Origin: Pelagicoccus sp. SDUM812003
GTDB taxonomy: Bacteria; Verrucomicrobiota; Verrucomicrobiia; Opitutales; Opitutaceae
Assembly: GCF_031127815.1 (NCBI RefSeq)
Contig: NZ_JARXHY010000007.1
Location: 124,001 to 188,000, forward strand
Length of the DNA stretch: 64,000 bases
Direction: 5' to 3'
Position 1 is the first letter of the stretch, and every line of letters begins with the position of its first letter. Below, one piece after another: positions 6,060-38,815 of this stretch. Position numbers and translations under genes: made by a program. Below the pieces are notes generated by a model. It was not told where the DNA came from. It saw only the letters and a program-made list of their open reading frames with translations, and searched no databases.

Positions 6060-7553
6060 CTACTGGGTGGGCAGCTTCAGCAAGGTCCCTTTTTCGATGC
6101 GATCGTCGAGCTCCACTTGATTCATGATGGCCCAGTCCTGAGCGTCCATGTCGGGTGGAAGTCGGTCGGGCAGCAATTCGCGGAAGGTGGCGCTGCGGGA
6201 GGCGGGTTCGATGGTCAAGCGGTAGGGTTGTATGCTTTTGGCCGCGGCGTCGCGCAGCTCCTGAAACGAGCGAGCGGTTTGCGCGATGCTCTGGCGGTGG
6301 ACGGGATAGCTCGCGGGACTCCCGTATCCCAGAAACTGGTAGACCGATCCTTGGTACTCGATCGCTTGAGCGTAAATCGGAATCTGTCCGTTTTGCGTGG
6401 TTACGGTGCCTTCGAGGGCATAGGCAGGCAAACCGTTGACCAGTTCCTCGCCTGCGTAGCTGGGGGAAACCTTGAGGCGCTCCGCGAGAGCTTGAACCGA
6501 TGCGAAGGGGGAGTCCTGGCTAGCGGGCGTCAGGGCCAGGAGGGCGGTTCCGTTTGGTTCGGCAAGGTACACCGCTGAGCGCTCGTTTTGCACCTTCCAG
6601 CCGGTGGGAATATCGAATTGAAAGGAGAGTTCCGGATGCAGGAAACGTCCTTCCGAGACGAAGCCTTCGCGTGGATTCTGTCCTACGATCAGGCCCTCGA
6701 TGTGGTTGAAGAATTGGCGTTGGCCCACGATGGGCTCCCCGCCGCCCCCGGTCTCCCATTTTCGGGAAAGCTCCGCGATGGTGGTCTCGCGCTCGCCGGG
6801 ATCCGGGTGGCTGGACATCCAGGAGGGGATGGTCTGGCCCGACTTTTCCGAGATGCGCTTCAACGACCGGAAAAAGGCGCTGCCCTCGGACGCGTCGTAG
6901 CCGGCTTTGGTGGCGTACTCCACCCCGTGGAAGTCGGATTCGCGCTCCGCGTCGCGACCGTATTTGAGCGTCATCAATTGAAAGAGACTGCCGCTGAGGT
7001 CGACCATCTGGCGGGCCAGCTCCTTGTTTTCCGCCACCTGTTCGCCGATGATGGCGCCGGCAAGAAGGCCGATCTGTCCCCACTGCTGCTTGAGGGCCTG
7101 TTGAGAGGCGTGACGAGCCTCCACATGGGTGATCTCATGCCCGATGACCACCGCGAGCTGAGCTTCGTTGTTCAAGTGGGCGAGCAGACCGCGCGTGACG
7201 TAAACGAAGCCGCCCGGAAGGGCGAAGGCGTTGACCACCGGAGAATCGAGAACACGAAAGACGAAATCCGTATCCTGATAGATTTCGGGTGTATCCTCTT
7301 GATGGAAAGCGCTTTTCTCAAGCAGATCGTGGCCGATCCCCTTCACGTACTCGGAGAGGCCGTCGTCTGGGTAGAGGCCCATTTGCTGCACGATTTCCGT
7401 GTCCGACTTCTTTCCCAGCGCCAGTTCCTGGTCCCAGGTGTAGGCGTAGTATCCTGTTTTCCCGGTGTAGAGGCTGGGCTCGGTGGCGCAGCCGCTGAAG
7501 AGGAGAATCGAGGTGATTAGGAGCGACGAAAACGCGATTAGGCGAGATTTCAT
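6060..7553 (-). CDS. M48-family metalloprotease, predicted lipoprotein
   Basis: About 497 residues from the ATG at 7553. The N-terminus is a lipoprotein signal: a hydrophobic stretch, then SGC with the lipidated Cys22. The zinc protease motif HEITH (His139, Glu140, His143) is followed by the downstream ligand motif E-x3-D near residues 203-207 (AERESD). The domain belongs to the BepA/LoiP-like M48 peptidases, which degrade or help fold outer-membrane proteins in the periplasm. Beyond the catalytic domain is a roughly 200-residue C-terminal extension that starts near a predicted surface segment (FDIPTGWKVQN) and has no recognised motif. It is transcribed alone, away from the tRNA-Asn gene. Confidence 0.88.
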   Translation of the reverse strand: MKSRLIAFSSLLITSILLFSGCATEPSLYTGKTGYYAYTWDQELALGKKSDTEIVQQMGLYPDDGLSEYVKGIGHDLLEKSAFHQEDTPEIYQDTDFVFRVLDSPVVNAFALPGGFVYVTRGLLAHLNNEAQLAVVIGHEITHVEARHASQQALKQQWGQIGLLAGAIIGEQVAENKELARQMVDLSGSLFQLMTLKYGRDAERESDFHGVEYATKAGYDASEGSAFFRSLKRISEKSGQTIPSWMSSHPDPGERETTIAELSRKWETGGGGEPIVGQRQFFNHIEGLIVGQNPREGFVSEGRFLHPELSFQFDIPTGWKVQNERSAVYLAEPNGTALLALTPASQDSPFASVQALAERLKVSPSYAGEELVNGLPAYALEGTVTTQNGQIPIYAQAIEYQGSVYQFLGYGSPASYPVHRQSIAQTARSFQELRDAAAKSIQPYRLTIEPASRSATFRELLPDRLPPDMDAQDWAIMNQVELDDRIEKGTLLKLPTQ

Positions 7554-7672
7554 GGGCAACGTCAGACAGATGGTTTGCGGTCAGGTTCGGAGGTCGAAAT
7601 TTGCAAAATCAGCCCTGTCGGTCAACGCACGACTGAGGGGGCTCACTTTTTTGAAATTCTTGCAGCAAAGGG

Positions 7673-7701
7673 TTGACAAGACCCCCACAAACCGACTTCT
7701 T
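7673..7701 (+). promoter_or_regulatory. Candidate promoter of tRNA-Asn
   Basis: A perfect -35 hexamer TTGACA lies at 7673-7678, 42 bases before the mature tRNA. A recognisable -10 box at 17 bases spacing is missing (CTTCTT). The same TTGACA followed shortly by GAC precedes tRNA-Lys at 50194. Confidence 0.45.
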
Positions 7702-7714
7702 CCGTGTCCATTCT

Positions 7715-7789
7715 TGCCCTGTAGCTCAGTGGTAGAGCAGGTGGCTGTTAACCACTTGGTCGCTGGTTCGAGTCCAGCCGGGGCAGCCA
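7715..7789 (+). tRNA. tRNA-Asn (anticodon GTT)
   Basis: A full cloverleaf can be drawn. The acceptor pairs TGCCCTG with CGGGGCA, and the D arm contains AGCTCAGTGGTAGAGC. The anticodon stem GGTGG/CCACT encloses the loop CTGTTAA with GTT at positions 34-36, and the T arm is GCTGG-TTCGAGT-CCAGC. The discriminator is G and CCA is encoded. The 3' end of this gene is the source of the tandem repeats that follow. Confidence 0.95.
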
Positions 7790-8159
7790 TTTTTTCTTGA
7801 AACCGTCCATCCAGGGACGGCTTTTTTGTGTCCTGACAGCGCCAGCGACTGGACGAAGAACCAGCGAAGCGATTCGTTACCGAGGAGCGCCGCGACGACA
7901 GCGCGCAGCGCCCATCCAGCCGGGGCAGCCATTTTTTCTTGAAACCGTCCGTCCGGGGACGGCTTTTTTGTATCCTGACAGCGCCAGCGACTGGACGAAG
8001 AACCAGCGAAGCGGTTCGTTACCGAGGAGCGCCGCGACGACAGCGCGCAGCGCCCATCCAGCCGGGGCAGCCATTTTTCCCAGAAACCGTCCATCCAGGG
8101 ACGGCTTTTTTGTGTCCTGACAGCGCCAGCGACTGGACGAAGAACCAGCGAAGCGGTTC
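7773..8159 (+). repeat. 142-bp tandem array carrying the 3' end of tRNA-Asn and its terminator
   Basis: Three units start at 7773, 7915 and 8057 with an exact period of 142 bases; the third is cut short near 8159. Each begins with the last 17 tRNA bases (TCCAGCCGGGGCAGCCA), then T-rich DNA, a terminator hairpin, and a conserved stretch of about 85 bases of unknown nature. The first unit is the 3' end of the real tRNA. Units differ at only a few positions. The period is not a multiple of three, so the array is not protein-coding. The duplicated boundary lies in the T arm, the place where tRNA-targeting integrases cross over. Confidence 0.9.
7800..7827 (+). terminator. Intrinsic terminator after tRNA-Asn (first of three copies)
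   Basis: CCGTCC at 7803-7808 and GGACGG at 7815-7820 form a 6-bp stem followed by C and six T. The same hairpin recurs in the next two 142-bp units (around 7945 and 8086). Confidence 0.85.
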
Positions 8160-8289
8160 CAAGGTGGAACGGCTCGTCCTCGAGACGTTCAGAGCCGCGC
8201 TCCGTTCACGAGGCGTCGATCGAATACGAACTAGCCTCCTCGGAGGGTGACCGTTTTCGAACGCGCCCGGAGGTCGCGTTCCACCTTGG
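8159..8289. repeat. 131-bp element bounded by 13-bp perfect inverted repeats
   Basis: CCAAGGTGGAACG at 8159-8171 and CGTTCCACCTTGG at 8277-8289 are exact inverted copies. The right part also carries the REP-family core (CGCCCGGAGGTCGCGTTCCA). No coding capacity and no obvious target-site duplication are seen. It abuts the truncated third tRNA-tail unit. It resembles a REP doublet or a small non-autonomous element. Confidence 0.75.
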
Positions 8290-8322
8290 ACTCTTGCTTC
8301 GTCTGCTGTGACTGGGGAGGAG

Positions 8323-9948
8323 CTACGACTTGTAGTGGTCGAGCATGATATTGTATTTCTTCACCCGCAGGCCCATTTTGCGTTCGCTGATGCCGAGGCG
8401 ACGGGAGGCTTCGGCCATGTTGCTGCCGGTGTCCTTGAGCGAATCGACGATCATCTCGCGTTCCAGGGCTTCGATGGCGTCGGCCAGGGTGGCTTCCTCG
8501 TTTCGCTCCTTGGGGGACTTCTTTTGCAGCGTCGGGGGCAGGTGATGGGTTTTGACTGACTGCCCTTTGGCAAGCAGCACGGCCCGCTCCATGCAGTTTT
8601 CCAGTTCGCGCACGTTGCCTGGCCAATGGTAGCTCATGAGCAAATCGATAGCGGCGCTGGAGATGCGGATAGGCGTCTTTCGCTGACGTTTGGAATATTT
8701 TTCGATGAAGTGGTCGCAGAGCAGCAGCACGTCGCATTTGCGTTCGCGAAGAGGTGGCATGTAGATGGGGAAGACGTTGAGCCGGTAGTAAAGGTCTTCG
8801 CGAAAGGTTCCGTTGGCCATCATCTCTTCGAGATCCCTGCTGGTGGCGGCGATGACGCGCACGTCGGTTCGCTGGGTGGTTTGGCTGCCGACGCGCTCGA
8901 ACTCCTTTTCCTGCAGCACCCGCAGCAGTTTCACCTGAGTGGCGAGCGAGATGTCTCCGATCTCGTCTAGGAAAATGGTTCCGCCGTCCGCCAGTTCGAA
9001 ACGTCCCTTGCGCATGGAAAGGGCGCCGGTGAAGGCTCCTTTCTCGTGGCCGAAGAGCTCGCTTTCGATGATGGAGTCAGGCAGGGCGGCGCAGTTGAAT
9101 TTCACGAAGGGCTTCTTCACTCGGTCGCTTTTTTCGTGAAGCGCTTTCGCCACCAGTTCCTTGCCGGTGCCACTTTCGCCGCGTATCAGAACTGTGGTTA
9201 CGCTGCGAGCGACCTGATCGATGTGATAGTAGACCGAGCGCATCGCTCCGGAATTGCCGATCATGCCGTCCGGTCGGAAGCTTTTCTCTACCGCCTCCTG
9301 CAAGCGGTCGTTTTCTTCGCGCAAGCTCTGGATCTGCTCGCTGGCGTCTTGCCGAACGCGCGCCGCTTGGGCGATGATGGAGGCGATCATGGAGAGCAGT
9401 CTCAAATCCGCTTCCCATCCAAATCTGGGGTCGTGCTGCCGTTCGATGCTAAGGGTGCCGATAGCTTCCTCCTCGAATTTCATGGGAACGCACATCAGGC
9501 CGGTCCTAGGAGCGAGTTGAAGGCTTTGTATCAGATTTTCAGATACACCGTTCTCTTCAGCCCAAACCGCGAGGTCTGGCACGACCACAGGCTCTCGTTT
9601 CTCCATGGCGCGTTCCAACCGGTCGCCGATGATTTCCAGGTAGTCTTCGGGTGTGAAGTCCCTCGGCAAGCCCACCGCTTCTGAAAGAAGTAGCCCACCG
9701 GTGTCCCGGTTTCGAATGGCGATGGTGCCGCGTTCTAGACCCATCCAGTCGCGCAGTCGGTGAAGCACGGGGCTGACGACCTCGGTGAGATCGAAGCTCT
9801 TTTCGAGGGTTTGGCTGATGGCGAACATCATTCCGAGTTCGCGGACGGATCGGCAGTTGACGCCGGTCGAACGATTCAACAGCTCAAGCGATGGCCCCTC
9901 ACGGGCCAGGGCGCATCCCCCCACTTGACAGTTTGTATCGTGATTCAT
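8323..9948 (-). CDS. nifA: NifA-type sigma-54-dependent transcriptional activator
   Basis: 541 residues in the standard NifA layout. A GAF sensory domain (about residues 45-200) is followed by a coiled-coil linker and an AAA+ domain with Walker A GESGTGKE (257-264), the sigma-54 contact loop GAFTGA (304-309) and Walker B GTIFLDEIGD (323-332). A C-terminal Fis-like helix-turn-helix (SNMAEASRRLGISERKMG) ends the protein. It would activate nif transcription with RpoN. The inter-domain linker lacks the paired cysteines typical of oxygen-sensitive NifA of rhizobia. The N-terminus instead carries Cys7-x4-Cys12 and Cys32. No nifL is adjacent. It is divergent from nifH with a 334-base gap that holds the likely control sites. 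Confidence 0.93.
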   Translation of the reverse strand: MNHDTNCQVGGCALAREGPSLELLNRSTGVNCRSVRELGMMFAISQTLEKSFDLTEVVSPVLHRLRDWMGLERGTIAIRNRDTGGLLLSEAVGLPRDFTPEDYLEIIGDRLERAMEKREPVVVPDLAVWAEENGVSENLIQSLQLAPRTGLMCVPMKFEEEAIGTLSIERQHDPRFGWEADLRLLSMIASIIAQAARVRQDASEQIQSLREENDRLQEAVEKSFRPDGMIGNSGAMRSVYYHIDQVARSVTTVLIRGESGTGKELVAKALHEKSDRVKKPFVKFNCAALPDSIIESELFGHEKGAFTGALSMRKGRFELADGGTIFLDEIGDISLATQVKLLRVLQEKEFERVGSQTTQRTDVRVIAATSRDLEEMMANGTFREDLYYRLNVFPIYMPPLRERKCDVLLLCDHFIEKYSKRQRKTPIRISSAAIDLLMSYHWPGNVRELENCMERAVLLAKGQSVKTHHLPPTLQKKSPKERNEEATLADAIEALEREMIVDSLKDTGSNMAEASRRLGISERKMGLRVKKYNIMLDHYKS

Positions 9949-10234: not shown

Positions 10235-11158
<924 letters not shown>

Positions 11159-38743: not shown

Positions 38744-38815
38744 TGCCCGGCGGTCACGCCCTACCTCTGCCCGGCGGTCACGCCCTACCTCTGCCCGGCG
38801 GTCACGCCCTACCTT
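38744..38815. repeat. Three tandem REP-like units overlapping the rnr stop codon
   Basis: Units start at 38744, 38768 and 38792, each 24 bases (TGCCCGGCGGTCACGCCCTA plus CCTC or CCTT). An inverted partial copy (GACCGCCGGGCGA) is at about 38709-38721. On the minus strand the last unit encodes the final Gly-Arg-Ala and the TGA stop of rnr. With unique spacers absent and only three units, this is not CRISPR. Confidence 0.85.

Follow-up and report, generated by a model that had tools for sequence, protein, structure and literature searches.

A tRNA-tail array behind tRNA-Asn of Pelagicoccus that probably belongs to a widespread class of short non-coding elements known from Escherichia coli rtT

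The tyrT and tyrV loci of Escherichia coli carry 178-base repeats (rtT, RttR or Tpr; Rfam RF00391) that lie directly behind the tRNA gene, each unit opening with the tRNA 3' end and continuing with an inverted T-arm (GGGGAAGGATGAGAAGCTTCGA against GGGGAAGGATTCGAACCTTCGA), the motif GGTTCGA, a hairpin insert and the next tail, in tandem arrays of variable copy number. To our knowledge, these tyrT repeats have so far been an isolated oddity. Here we describe an array of the same layout at a tRNA-Asn gene of Pelagicoccus sp. SDUM812003, a member of the Verrucomicrobiota, within a stretch of 64,000 nucleotides (contig NZ_JARXHY010000007.1, positions 124,001 to 188,000), which is referred to as the window. 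We consider it reasonably probable that this array belongs to a widespread class of small non-coding elements found 3' of tRNA genes, of which E. coli rtT is the known case.

What has been described so far forms a small corner of this subject: E. coli rtT itself; a 175-bp variable-number repeat in Salmonella Paratyphi A that is reported to be rtT (PMC2658671); and a similarity between rtT and some leader elements of bacterial interspersed mosaic elements (BIMEs), as reported in PMC2965389. A literature search covering titles and abstract openings of the searched collection returned nothing on tRNA-tail arrays outside enterobacteria, and nothing on GIY-YIG genes behind bacterial tRNA genes. Accordingly, for units at many tRNAs per genome, in distant lineages and with a tRNA-matched arm, we found no description in the literature searched.

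The array at tRNA-Asn and its kinship with rtT

An earlier note on this DNA had reported a tail array with a 142-base period and a terminator at tRNA-Asn, and this was borne out by Tandem Repeats Finder (7773-8159, period 142, 2.7 copies, 95% matches, 0 indels), by ungapped comparison of the copies and by the terminator sites. Each unit opens with the last 17 bases of tRNA-Asn, a span that begins with the T-stem 3' strand and runs through CCA (first copy 7773-7789), and continues with a terminator-like site and then a spacer. The breakpoint falls within the T-arm, as had been noted, and it does so both here and in other RtT-like arrays. The window holds three units at this tRNA, the last of them truncated, and the tRNA is intact. 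The features are as follows.

7715-7789, + strand: intact tRNA-Asn(GTT) gene (ARAGORN; Rfam tRNA, 70.7 bits)
7773-7914, + strand: unit 1, 142 bases, with tail, terminator, inverted T-arm, hairpin and insert (ungapped copy)
7915-8056, + strand: unit 2, 142 bases, 97% identity with unit 1 (ungapped copy)
8057-8159, + strand: unit 3, truncated after GGTTC and without the insert, 96% identity over 103 bases
7803-7827, 7945-7969 and 8087-8111, + strand: intrinsic terminator-like site, one per unit (terminator scan)
7846-7867, + strand: inverted T-arm of unit 1, CGACTGGACGAAGAACCAGCGA, against the reverse complement of tRNA-Asn, CGGCTGGACTCGAACCAGCGA
7858-7875, + strand: hairpin GAACC-A-GC(GAA)GC-GGTTC, with one mismatch in unit 1
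7876-7914 (unit 1) and 8018-8056 (unit 2), + strand: short 'class A' insert (sequence reading)

The three terminator-like sites occupy equivalent positions in their units, against 0.9 sites expected in shuffles. The inverted T-arm of unit 1 recurs unchanged in unit 2 (7988-8009) and unit 3 (8130-8151), and in local alignment it scores 26 against its own tRNA-Asn, a score that none of 142 tRNAs of other types reaches. The GAACC/GGTTC hairpin is perfect in units 2 and 3 (8000-8017 and 8142-8159), and a further hairpin, GCGC(GCA)GCGC, lies at 7901-7911 within the class A insert of unit 1. Homologues of this insert are found behind tRNA-Gln of the same genome and behind tRNA-Asn of a sister species. 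An assembly artefact is unlikely, given that the copies carry point differences and that like arrays are present in a one-contig genome of another genus of the family, in a 5.5-Mb scaffold of a second sister species and in complete E. coli genomes. Neither the inverted T-arm nor the likeness to E. coli tyrT/rtT figured in the earlier note.

The 85-base core that the same note had singled out is present, but it is not peculiar to tRNA-Asn, as a homologue (87% over 50 bases) lies behind tRNA-Gln(CTG). We considered and set aside the idea that this core is a dispersed repeat unrelated to the tRNA: below E 1, its matches in its own genome are confined to the Asn locus and the Gln locus.

As in RtT, the units of the window lie directly 3' of the tRNA in tandem, with its own 3' end placed first, and their inverted arm is complementary to the T-arm and tail of the host. 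The difference from E. coli rtT is a shorter insert, outside the reach of the Rfam RtT model. At the tRNA-Tyr units of a sister species (G006), this model aligns over all 130 positions with 43.1 bits (E 1.6e-5), the highest score among ten other loci scanned but just under its cut-off of 45 bits, and weaker matches occur in Glu, Gln and Ser arrays (E 0.035, 0.094 and 0.2, respectively). We also built a sequence-only model from 19 units, termed R1, from which the window units were excluded. On the + strand of window positions 7700-8300, R1 matches at 7851-7899, 7993-8045 and 8135-8159 (E 0.0019, 0.022 and 0.043 in 601 bases), and two weaker matches fall on the opposite strand (E 0.31 and 0.86). 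Because R1 finds the three expected positions while the Rfam model misses them, the array is, on sequence similarity, a divergent relative with a short insert. Other Rfam families were rejected, as matches to HPnc0260, PhotoRC-I, sX4, mascRNA and the plastid families stayed below cut-off; a single sX4 match above it, at locus L264, covers the tRNA-Ser itself.

Tail repeats across tRNA genes and lineages

To describe how common such tails are, we refer to the window genome as G000, to seven further genomes of its genus as G001 to G007 (G002 and G006 being sister species), and to a genome from another genus of the same family as G010. The tRNA set of G000 comprises 40 matches to the Rfam tRNA model, and the sequence behind each was read. 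A tail repeat was defined as the last 15 nucleotides of a tRNA, with at most 2 mismatches, recurring within up to 700 bases behind the gene; four duplications of whole tRNAs (three Gly-GCC and one Glu) were excluded from the counts. Over G000, G002, G006 and G010, tail repeats follow 28 of 146 tRNA genes. Clearly different tails of the same genome recurred in 11 of 5220 controls, and other 15-base windows of the tRNA recurred behind their own gene in 4-5 of 146. A chance origin is excluded by the 28 of 146 own tails against 11 of 5220 foreign ones.

In G000, a tail copy was found behind 11 of 40 tRNA genes, namely, Asp, Phe, Gly-TCC, Asn, Thr-CGT, His, Leu-CAA, Ser-GCT, Glu, Ser-GGA and Gln-CTG. 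The corresponding figures are 9 of 42 in G002, 6 of 43 in G006 and 2 of the 21 tRNAs examined in G010, where one of the two is a GIY-YIG unit. The arrays of G000 differ from each other in period and tail, with unit lengths of 95-185 bases; the array at tRNA-Gln(CTG), the second one, has a period of 150 bases and 3.5 copies. In addition, units at the ends of contigs C28, C17 and C14 have tails that match the Glu, Gln-TTG and Leu-CAA genes located at other contig ends. Since Leu-CAA was counted before, occupied tRNA genes in G000 probably amount to 13 of 40. It was also observed that the assembly breaks C6/C14, C29/C28 and C30/C17 seem to fall within tRNA-tail arrays.

Insert kinds beyond R1 exist as well (G000 Phe, Thr-CGT and Asp; G002 Thr-CGT; G006 Arg-CCT and Met). 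The Phe, Thr and Arg arrays have a common insert (TTCGATG ... GTGTCG ... CTCGGTA), from which those of Asp and Met differ. As a separate observation, dense clusters of many same-strand tRNA genes, resembling those of phages or plasmids, were seen at G010 C1 1305042-1308554 and at L217 (G212).

Beyond the family, R1 matched 28 of 288 genomes of the phylum (13 candidates scored per genome), including two, G000 and G010, that supplied model units. Among the loci read, 26 of 30 have a same-strand tRNA ending at most 600 bases upstream, two loci being one array. We then scanned the named genomes with a 20-base core pattern, GGATGAGAACC N(2-16) GGTTCGACG, for which we estimate, under even base composition, about 7 chance occurrences in 257 billion bases. 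The pattern occurs 87 times in the 80 of 118 stretches listed. Among these listed matches, 64 of 87 lie at most 600 bases 3' of a same-strand tRNA, 44 with a repeated tail, and 23 have no nearby tRNA, of which 11 have less than 600 bases of upstream sequence. The tRNA-adjacent matches listed come from bacterial records of the Verrucomicrobiota, Kiritimatiellota (Pontiellaceae), Alphaproteobacteria and Gracilibacteria, from Gammaproteobacteria (Stenotrophomonas, Klebsiella pneumoniae, Dyella, Salinisphaera, Sedimenticola and others), and from archaeal records which, by their names as binned, are Nanoarchaeota, Pacearchaeota and 'archaeon' metagenome-assembled genomes (DPANN). In three archaeal loci of this kind that we inspected, the tail lacks CCA and the layout is unchanged.

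The number of units varies between close relatives. A tyrT query that includes tRNA-Tyr gave some match in 5375 of 5426 complete E. coli genomes, and the alleles that were read have, after the second tRNA-Tyr, 0 units (E7-1N7), 1 unit (FDAARGOS_943 and NWU_1), 3 units (K-12) or 5 units (SCU-102), with one further unit between the two tRNA-Tyr genes in K-12. The empty allele of E7-1N7 has a single tail and a trailer resembling that found behind the last unit elsewhere, and the JJ1886 locus has a single tRNA-Tyr with other genes behind. In SCU-102 (L388), units 2-3 and 4-5 look like one two-unit block that was copied. Within the genus of the window, 6 of 8 species have a His unit (G000, G001, G002, G004, G006 and G007); in G003 and G005, no unit follows the His genes that were found. 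The unit of G004 (L357, C134) lies behind a His gene missed by ARAGORN, and a second His gene there has none.

Relationships between inserts were examined in a tree of 55 of them. Phylum-level taxa need 4 changes on this tree, which is the minimum (shuffled 18.5), and tRNA types need 26 (minimum 9, shuffled mean 35.9), with Ser scattered as by chance. For instance, the nearest insert to that of G000 Gln is G000 Asn, not G006 Gln, and the nearest to G007 Asn is G002 Ser-CGA, not the Asn inserts of G000 or G002. Since inserts group by host lineage, and much less by tRNA type, we take this as movement of units from one tRNA gene to another within a lineage, the units at some sites being inherited vertically.

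The host-matched arm and the folded insert

The better-preserved units of G002 and G006 display the layout in full: tail, trailer or terminator, inverted T-arm of the own tRNA, GGTTCGA (which is the T-arm's 5' strand), an insert of some 60-90 bases, rich in hairpins and frequently closing with ...AACCAA or a like sequence, and the next tail. In most arrays the last copy has no insert; the last copies of G002 Glu and G006 Gln retain part or all of it.

An inverted arm matching its tRNA is illustrated by tRNA-Asp (GACGGGCCTCGATCCCGCGGCCT against GACGGGACTCGAACCCGCGGCCT). In local alignments over 30 arrays, the T-arm of the own tRNA ranked in the better half for 28 and in the best 5% for 11, with a median of 11.4%; no other tRNA type equalled its score for Asp, the window Asn, Thr (two genomes), Met of G010 and Tyr of G006. 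Unanchored complementarity between arm and tail is weak (at least 8 of 9 positions in 11 of 45 units, against 13 of 770). The signal is clearer when anchored on the core pattern: the 6 bases preceding it pair contiguously with bases 4-9 of the own tail over a mean of 2.88 in 59 tRNA-adjacent loci, and 2000 reassignments of tails among these loci gave a mean of 0.59 (sd 0.12, maximum 1.08). Moreover, among His orthologues of the genus, a change of the tail from TCC to CCC is accompanied by a change of the arm from GGA to GGG, that is, from A-U to G-C. By these comparisons, the inverted arm follows its host tRNA.

RNAalifold, run on a MAFFT alignment of all 19 units, gave no consensus structure, which we think is due to their differing hairpin lengths, and pairs were therefore counted on the orthologous His units. 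In seven of these, 94.6% of 168 cells of the named structure are paired, with 11 cells changed on both sides, in a structure taken from one of the sequences counted, which favours it; controls in which the structure was slid gave 20-49% paired and 0-3 cells changed on both sides. Of five measures taken on these units, three exceed all 500 shuffles. Single-unit RNA folds gave a mean z of -2.0 over 19 units, with a range from +0.2 to -4.6, so that many units are not strikingly stable as RNA.

The loops of these hairpins have a marked composition. Of the 48 triloops in 29 units, 28 are of the C(GNA)G type (shuffles, 0.52), as are 51 of the 97 triloops in 58 pattern loci (shuffles, 0.96). Any of the four bases occurs at N, and the counts are interdependent, the units being homologous; cGNRAg tetraloops number 1 and 4, respectively. 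According to PMC4686876, DNA mini-hairpins whose loop is GNA or GNNA have extraordinary stability, with a melting temperature of 78 C for d(GCGAAGC). Our statement on loop stability rests on that source, as the ViennaRNA DNA parameters hold no bonus for GNA loops. Finally, a terminator lies between tail and insert in 9 of 25 arrays under a strict scan, that of the window among them, and in 13 of 56 pattern loci. The cGNAg triloops, together with a terminator placed between tRNA and insert, suggest, short of proof, that a folded form of the DNA strand is of importance.

Explanations and known systems

Sequence comparison demonstrates the layout, the tRNA-matched arm, the compensatory structure of the His units, the spread over tRNA types and lineages, and copy-number change with an empty allele. 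The mechanism that we infer runs as follows. One unit would sit in the T-loop and give the tRNA a new 3' end, made of the 3' strand of the T-stem, the acceptor strand, CCA and the trailer or terminator; the old tail would be displaced downstream, every unit gained being one tail gained. The inverted copy of the host T-arm could base-pair with the tail that follows, thereby closing a structure of several hairpins. New tRNA genes may be reached by insertion into the T-loop between A58 and base 60 (standard tRNA numbering), with copying of the target tail. The form acted on may be a folded single DNA strand, to which the mostly cGNAg loops and the position of the insert behind a terminator in a good part of the arrays point. 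A resident array would grow or shrink by recombination between direct repeats. As a tentative extension of this, RtT-like units could be minimal mobile DNA of bacteria and DPANN archaea, travelling between tRNA genes in the form of a folded single DNA strand, guided by an inverted arm that pairs with the T-arm of the target and is rewritten for each host, with E. coli tyrT as one resident copy and GIY-YIG nucleases as a candidate helper.

Several results weigh against the class and its movement as proposed here. Window positions 7400-8400 give no Rfam RtT match even at E 5, none of 10 further loci outside E. coli reaches the cut-off (E. coli loci score 133-138 bits), and R1 matches only the first part of the window insert, which is short. 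Two R1 matches (L422 and L423) lie away from any called tRNA, one of them keeping a Leu-like tail, and 12 of the 23 tRNA-less pattern matches listed have enough upstream sequence, one of these being a third array unit. The arm test does not decide the matter for each single array, with the own T-arm in the best 5% for just those 11 of 30 arrays, and 11 of the 59 pattern loci pair with their tail over 0 bases. As regards structure, and besides the RNAalifold result, the favoured choice of the His structure and the interdependent hairpin counts, His pairs changed on both sides number 4 against 2.9 in shuffles and further pair types 8 against 11.0, G-U pairs are present, and GNRA tetraloops, though few, exceed shuffles (3 against 0.64 and 6 against 1.54). 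The insert tree rests on 89 columns with mostly weak forks, and tRNA types cluster on it beyond chance (0 of 200 shuffles as low) for His, Tyr and Gln; vertical inheritance with gene conversion between arrays could possibly mimic part of the spread, no insertion having been caught. Among tyrosine recombinases and GIY-YIG nucleases, no enzyme that moves the units was identified.

A protein-coding counterpart of the units does occur in the family. Among 36 standalone GIY-YIG loci examined, mostly the best match of each genome, 19 have the domain at most 350 bases 3' of a same-strand tRNA, Ser being the commonest (7), and in 4 of the 19 a copy of the tail follows. In G010, tRNA-Arg(CCT) (L198, C1 1973420-1974500) has three units behind it, arranged in tandem and about 318 bases long, each containing an intact GIY-YIG frame of 85 amino acids and a partial tRNA, its anticodon arm replaced by a hairpin, that ends in the tail; one of these tails is altered. 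One GIY-YIG unit follows tRNA-Met of the same genome. Thus, coding and non-coding tail units occupy one niche. It may be argued that small nucleases of this kind home by cutting the 3' part of tRNA genes, RtT-like units being non-coding derivatives or moved in trans, and the tRNA-adjacent loci and the G010 units with tails speak for it. Yet the only GIY-YIG match of G000 is a 499-residue frame of UvrC size, and G002 likewise has only a UvrC-size match, although 11 and 9 of their tRNA genes carry tail repeats; a tail copy follows in only those 4 of 19 loci, and no sequence was seen that would connect the RtT-like insert with the GIY-YIG units. We find this account doubtful, and treat the link as a lead only.

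The remaining alternatives bear on whether the units move at all. They could be RNA genes, co-transcribed with the tRNA, released by 3' processing and acting as small RNAs, a role that has been proposed for E. coli rtT, with the arm folding away the surplus tail. Consistent with this, E. coli K-12 annotates RttR as a small RNA, an RtT small RNA is annotated under the tyrT query match in 52 of the 60 rows listed, PMC2965389 cites a transcript of rtT that may play a part in the stringent response, the His units show compensatory changes, and PMC7657543 reports a tandem GA motif in RtT RNA, which is compatible with RNA as with DNA; against it stand the intrinsic terminators between tRNA and insert, the absence of any unit from E7-1N7 and the predominance of cGNAg triloops over GNRA tetraloops. 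We hold this to be a possible, if uncertain, account. Plain tandem duplication, by slippage or unequal recombination at each tRNA independently and with arrays homogenised by conversion, would need no mobile element and would fit the change of copy number by whole units, the 96-97% likeness of the window units and the Salmonella variable-number repeat. The shared insert opposes it as a full account: different tRNAs, in different phyla, are followed by one core pattern, insert and inverted arm, which independent duplications would not produce, and the insert is missing from the last copy in most arrays read. We regard it as unlikely. Least probable of all, and very improbable in our view, is one reading of the earlier note, that the array is a fossil of repeated integration and excision by tyrosine-recombinase elements. 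The T-arm breakpoint, with the unit starting after the T-loop, and the intact tRNA with a displaced tail behind it do agree with such elements, and integrases are found near some tRNAs of these genomes, as at G000 C4:106478, 0.8 kb from tRNA-Arg(CCT). However, that tRNA has no tail repeat, the 6 PF00589 matches of G000 all lie on contigs other than C7, the 297-kb contig of the window, the units are too short for cargo and one unit family is found on many tRNA types per genome. Gain and loss of units at tRNA 3' ends is real, as the empty and occupied alleles attest; an origin driven by an integrase was rejected. The array may still provide spare attachment sites or be a source of 3'-tRNA-like small RNAs, as had also been suggested.

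Its neighbours are nifH and the genes for an M48 peptidase and a GAF-domain sigma-54 activator, in agreement with the nif neighbourhood reported before.

8323-9948, - strand: sigma-54 activator with a GAF domain
10283-11158: NifH

Given that tail arrays follow 11 of 40 tRNA genes genome-wide, this closeness to nif genes looks incidental. A 137-base stretch with 14-base inverted ends (8156-8292, also delimited as 8158-8290) abuts the truncated unit 3, before the sigma-54 activator gene; pieces from its ends, of about 24-36 bases, have 37 matches in the genome, self included (E up to 0.1), as in a dispersed repeat of the repetitive extragenic palindromic (REP) kind, and we kept it outside the definition of the RtT-like element. 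Elsewhere in the window (38744-38814), a 24-base unit, TGCCCGGCGGTCACGCCCTACCTC, is present in three perfect tandem copies.

If the class proposed here holds, the tyrT repeats of E. coli are a single instance of a family that stands behind many tRNA genes across distant lineages, and the origin of rtT RNA becomes directly testable. RtT-like arrays would point to a process that copies tRNA ends. In practical terms, tRNA-tail arrays can break assemblies, with three likely breaks in G000.

Set against known systems, RtT-like units combine familiar traits in a way of their own. Tyrosine-recombinase elements that target tRNA genes likewise exploit the 3' end of the tRNA and leave the tRNA intact, but the array described here has no integrase on its contig and no cargo, and units of its kind are found at many tRNA types and are shorter than 200 bases in G000. 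The free-standing GIY-YIG nucleases of relatives occupy the same site behind tRNAs, some of them in tandem with tail copies, and differ in being coding and in having no common sequence with the inserts that we could see. Integron attC sites act as folded single strands. The REP and BIME sequences of enterobacteria are short, palindromic and non-coding, as RtT-like units are; unlike them, RtT-like units are tied to tRNA 3' ends, with an arm and a tail matched to the tRNA, and, below E 1, the core of the window array is not scattered over many intergenic sites. The closest counterpart is thus E. coli rtT, with the difference that the K-12 units stand at tRNA-Tyr and are annotated as RNA, whereas those of the Pelagicoccus genome stand behind many tRNAs, partly after a terminator.

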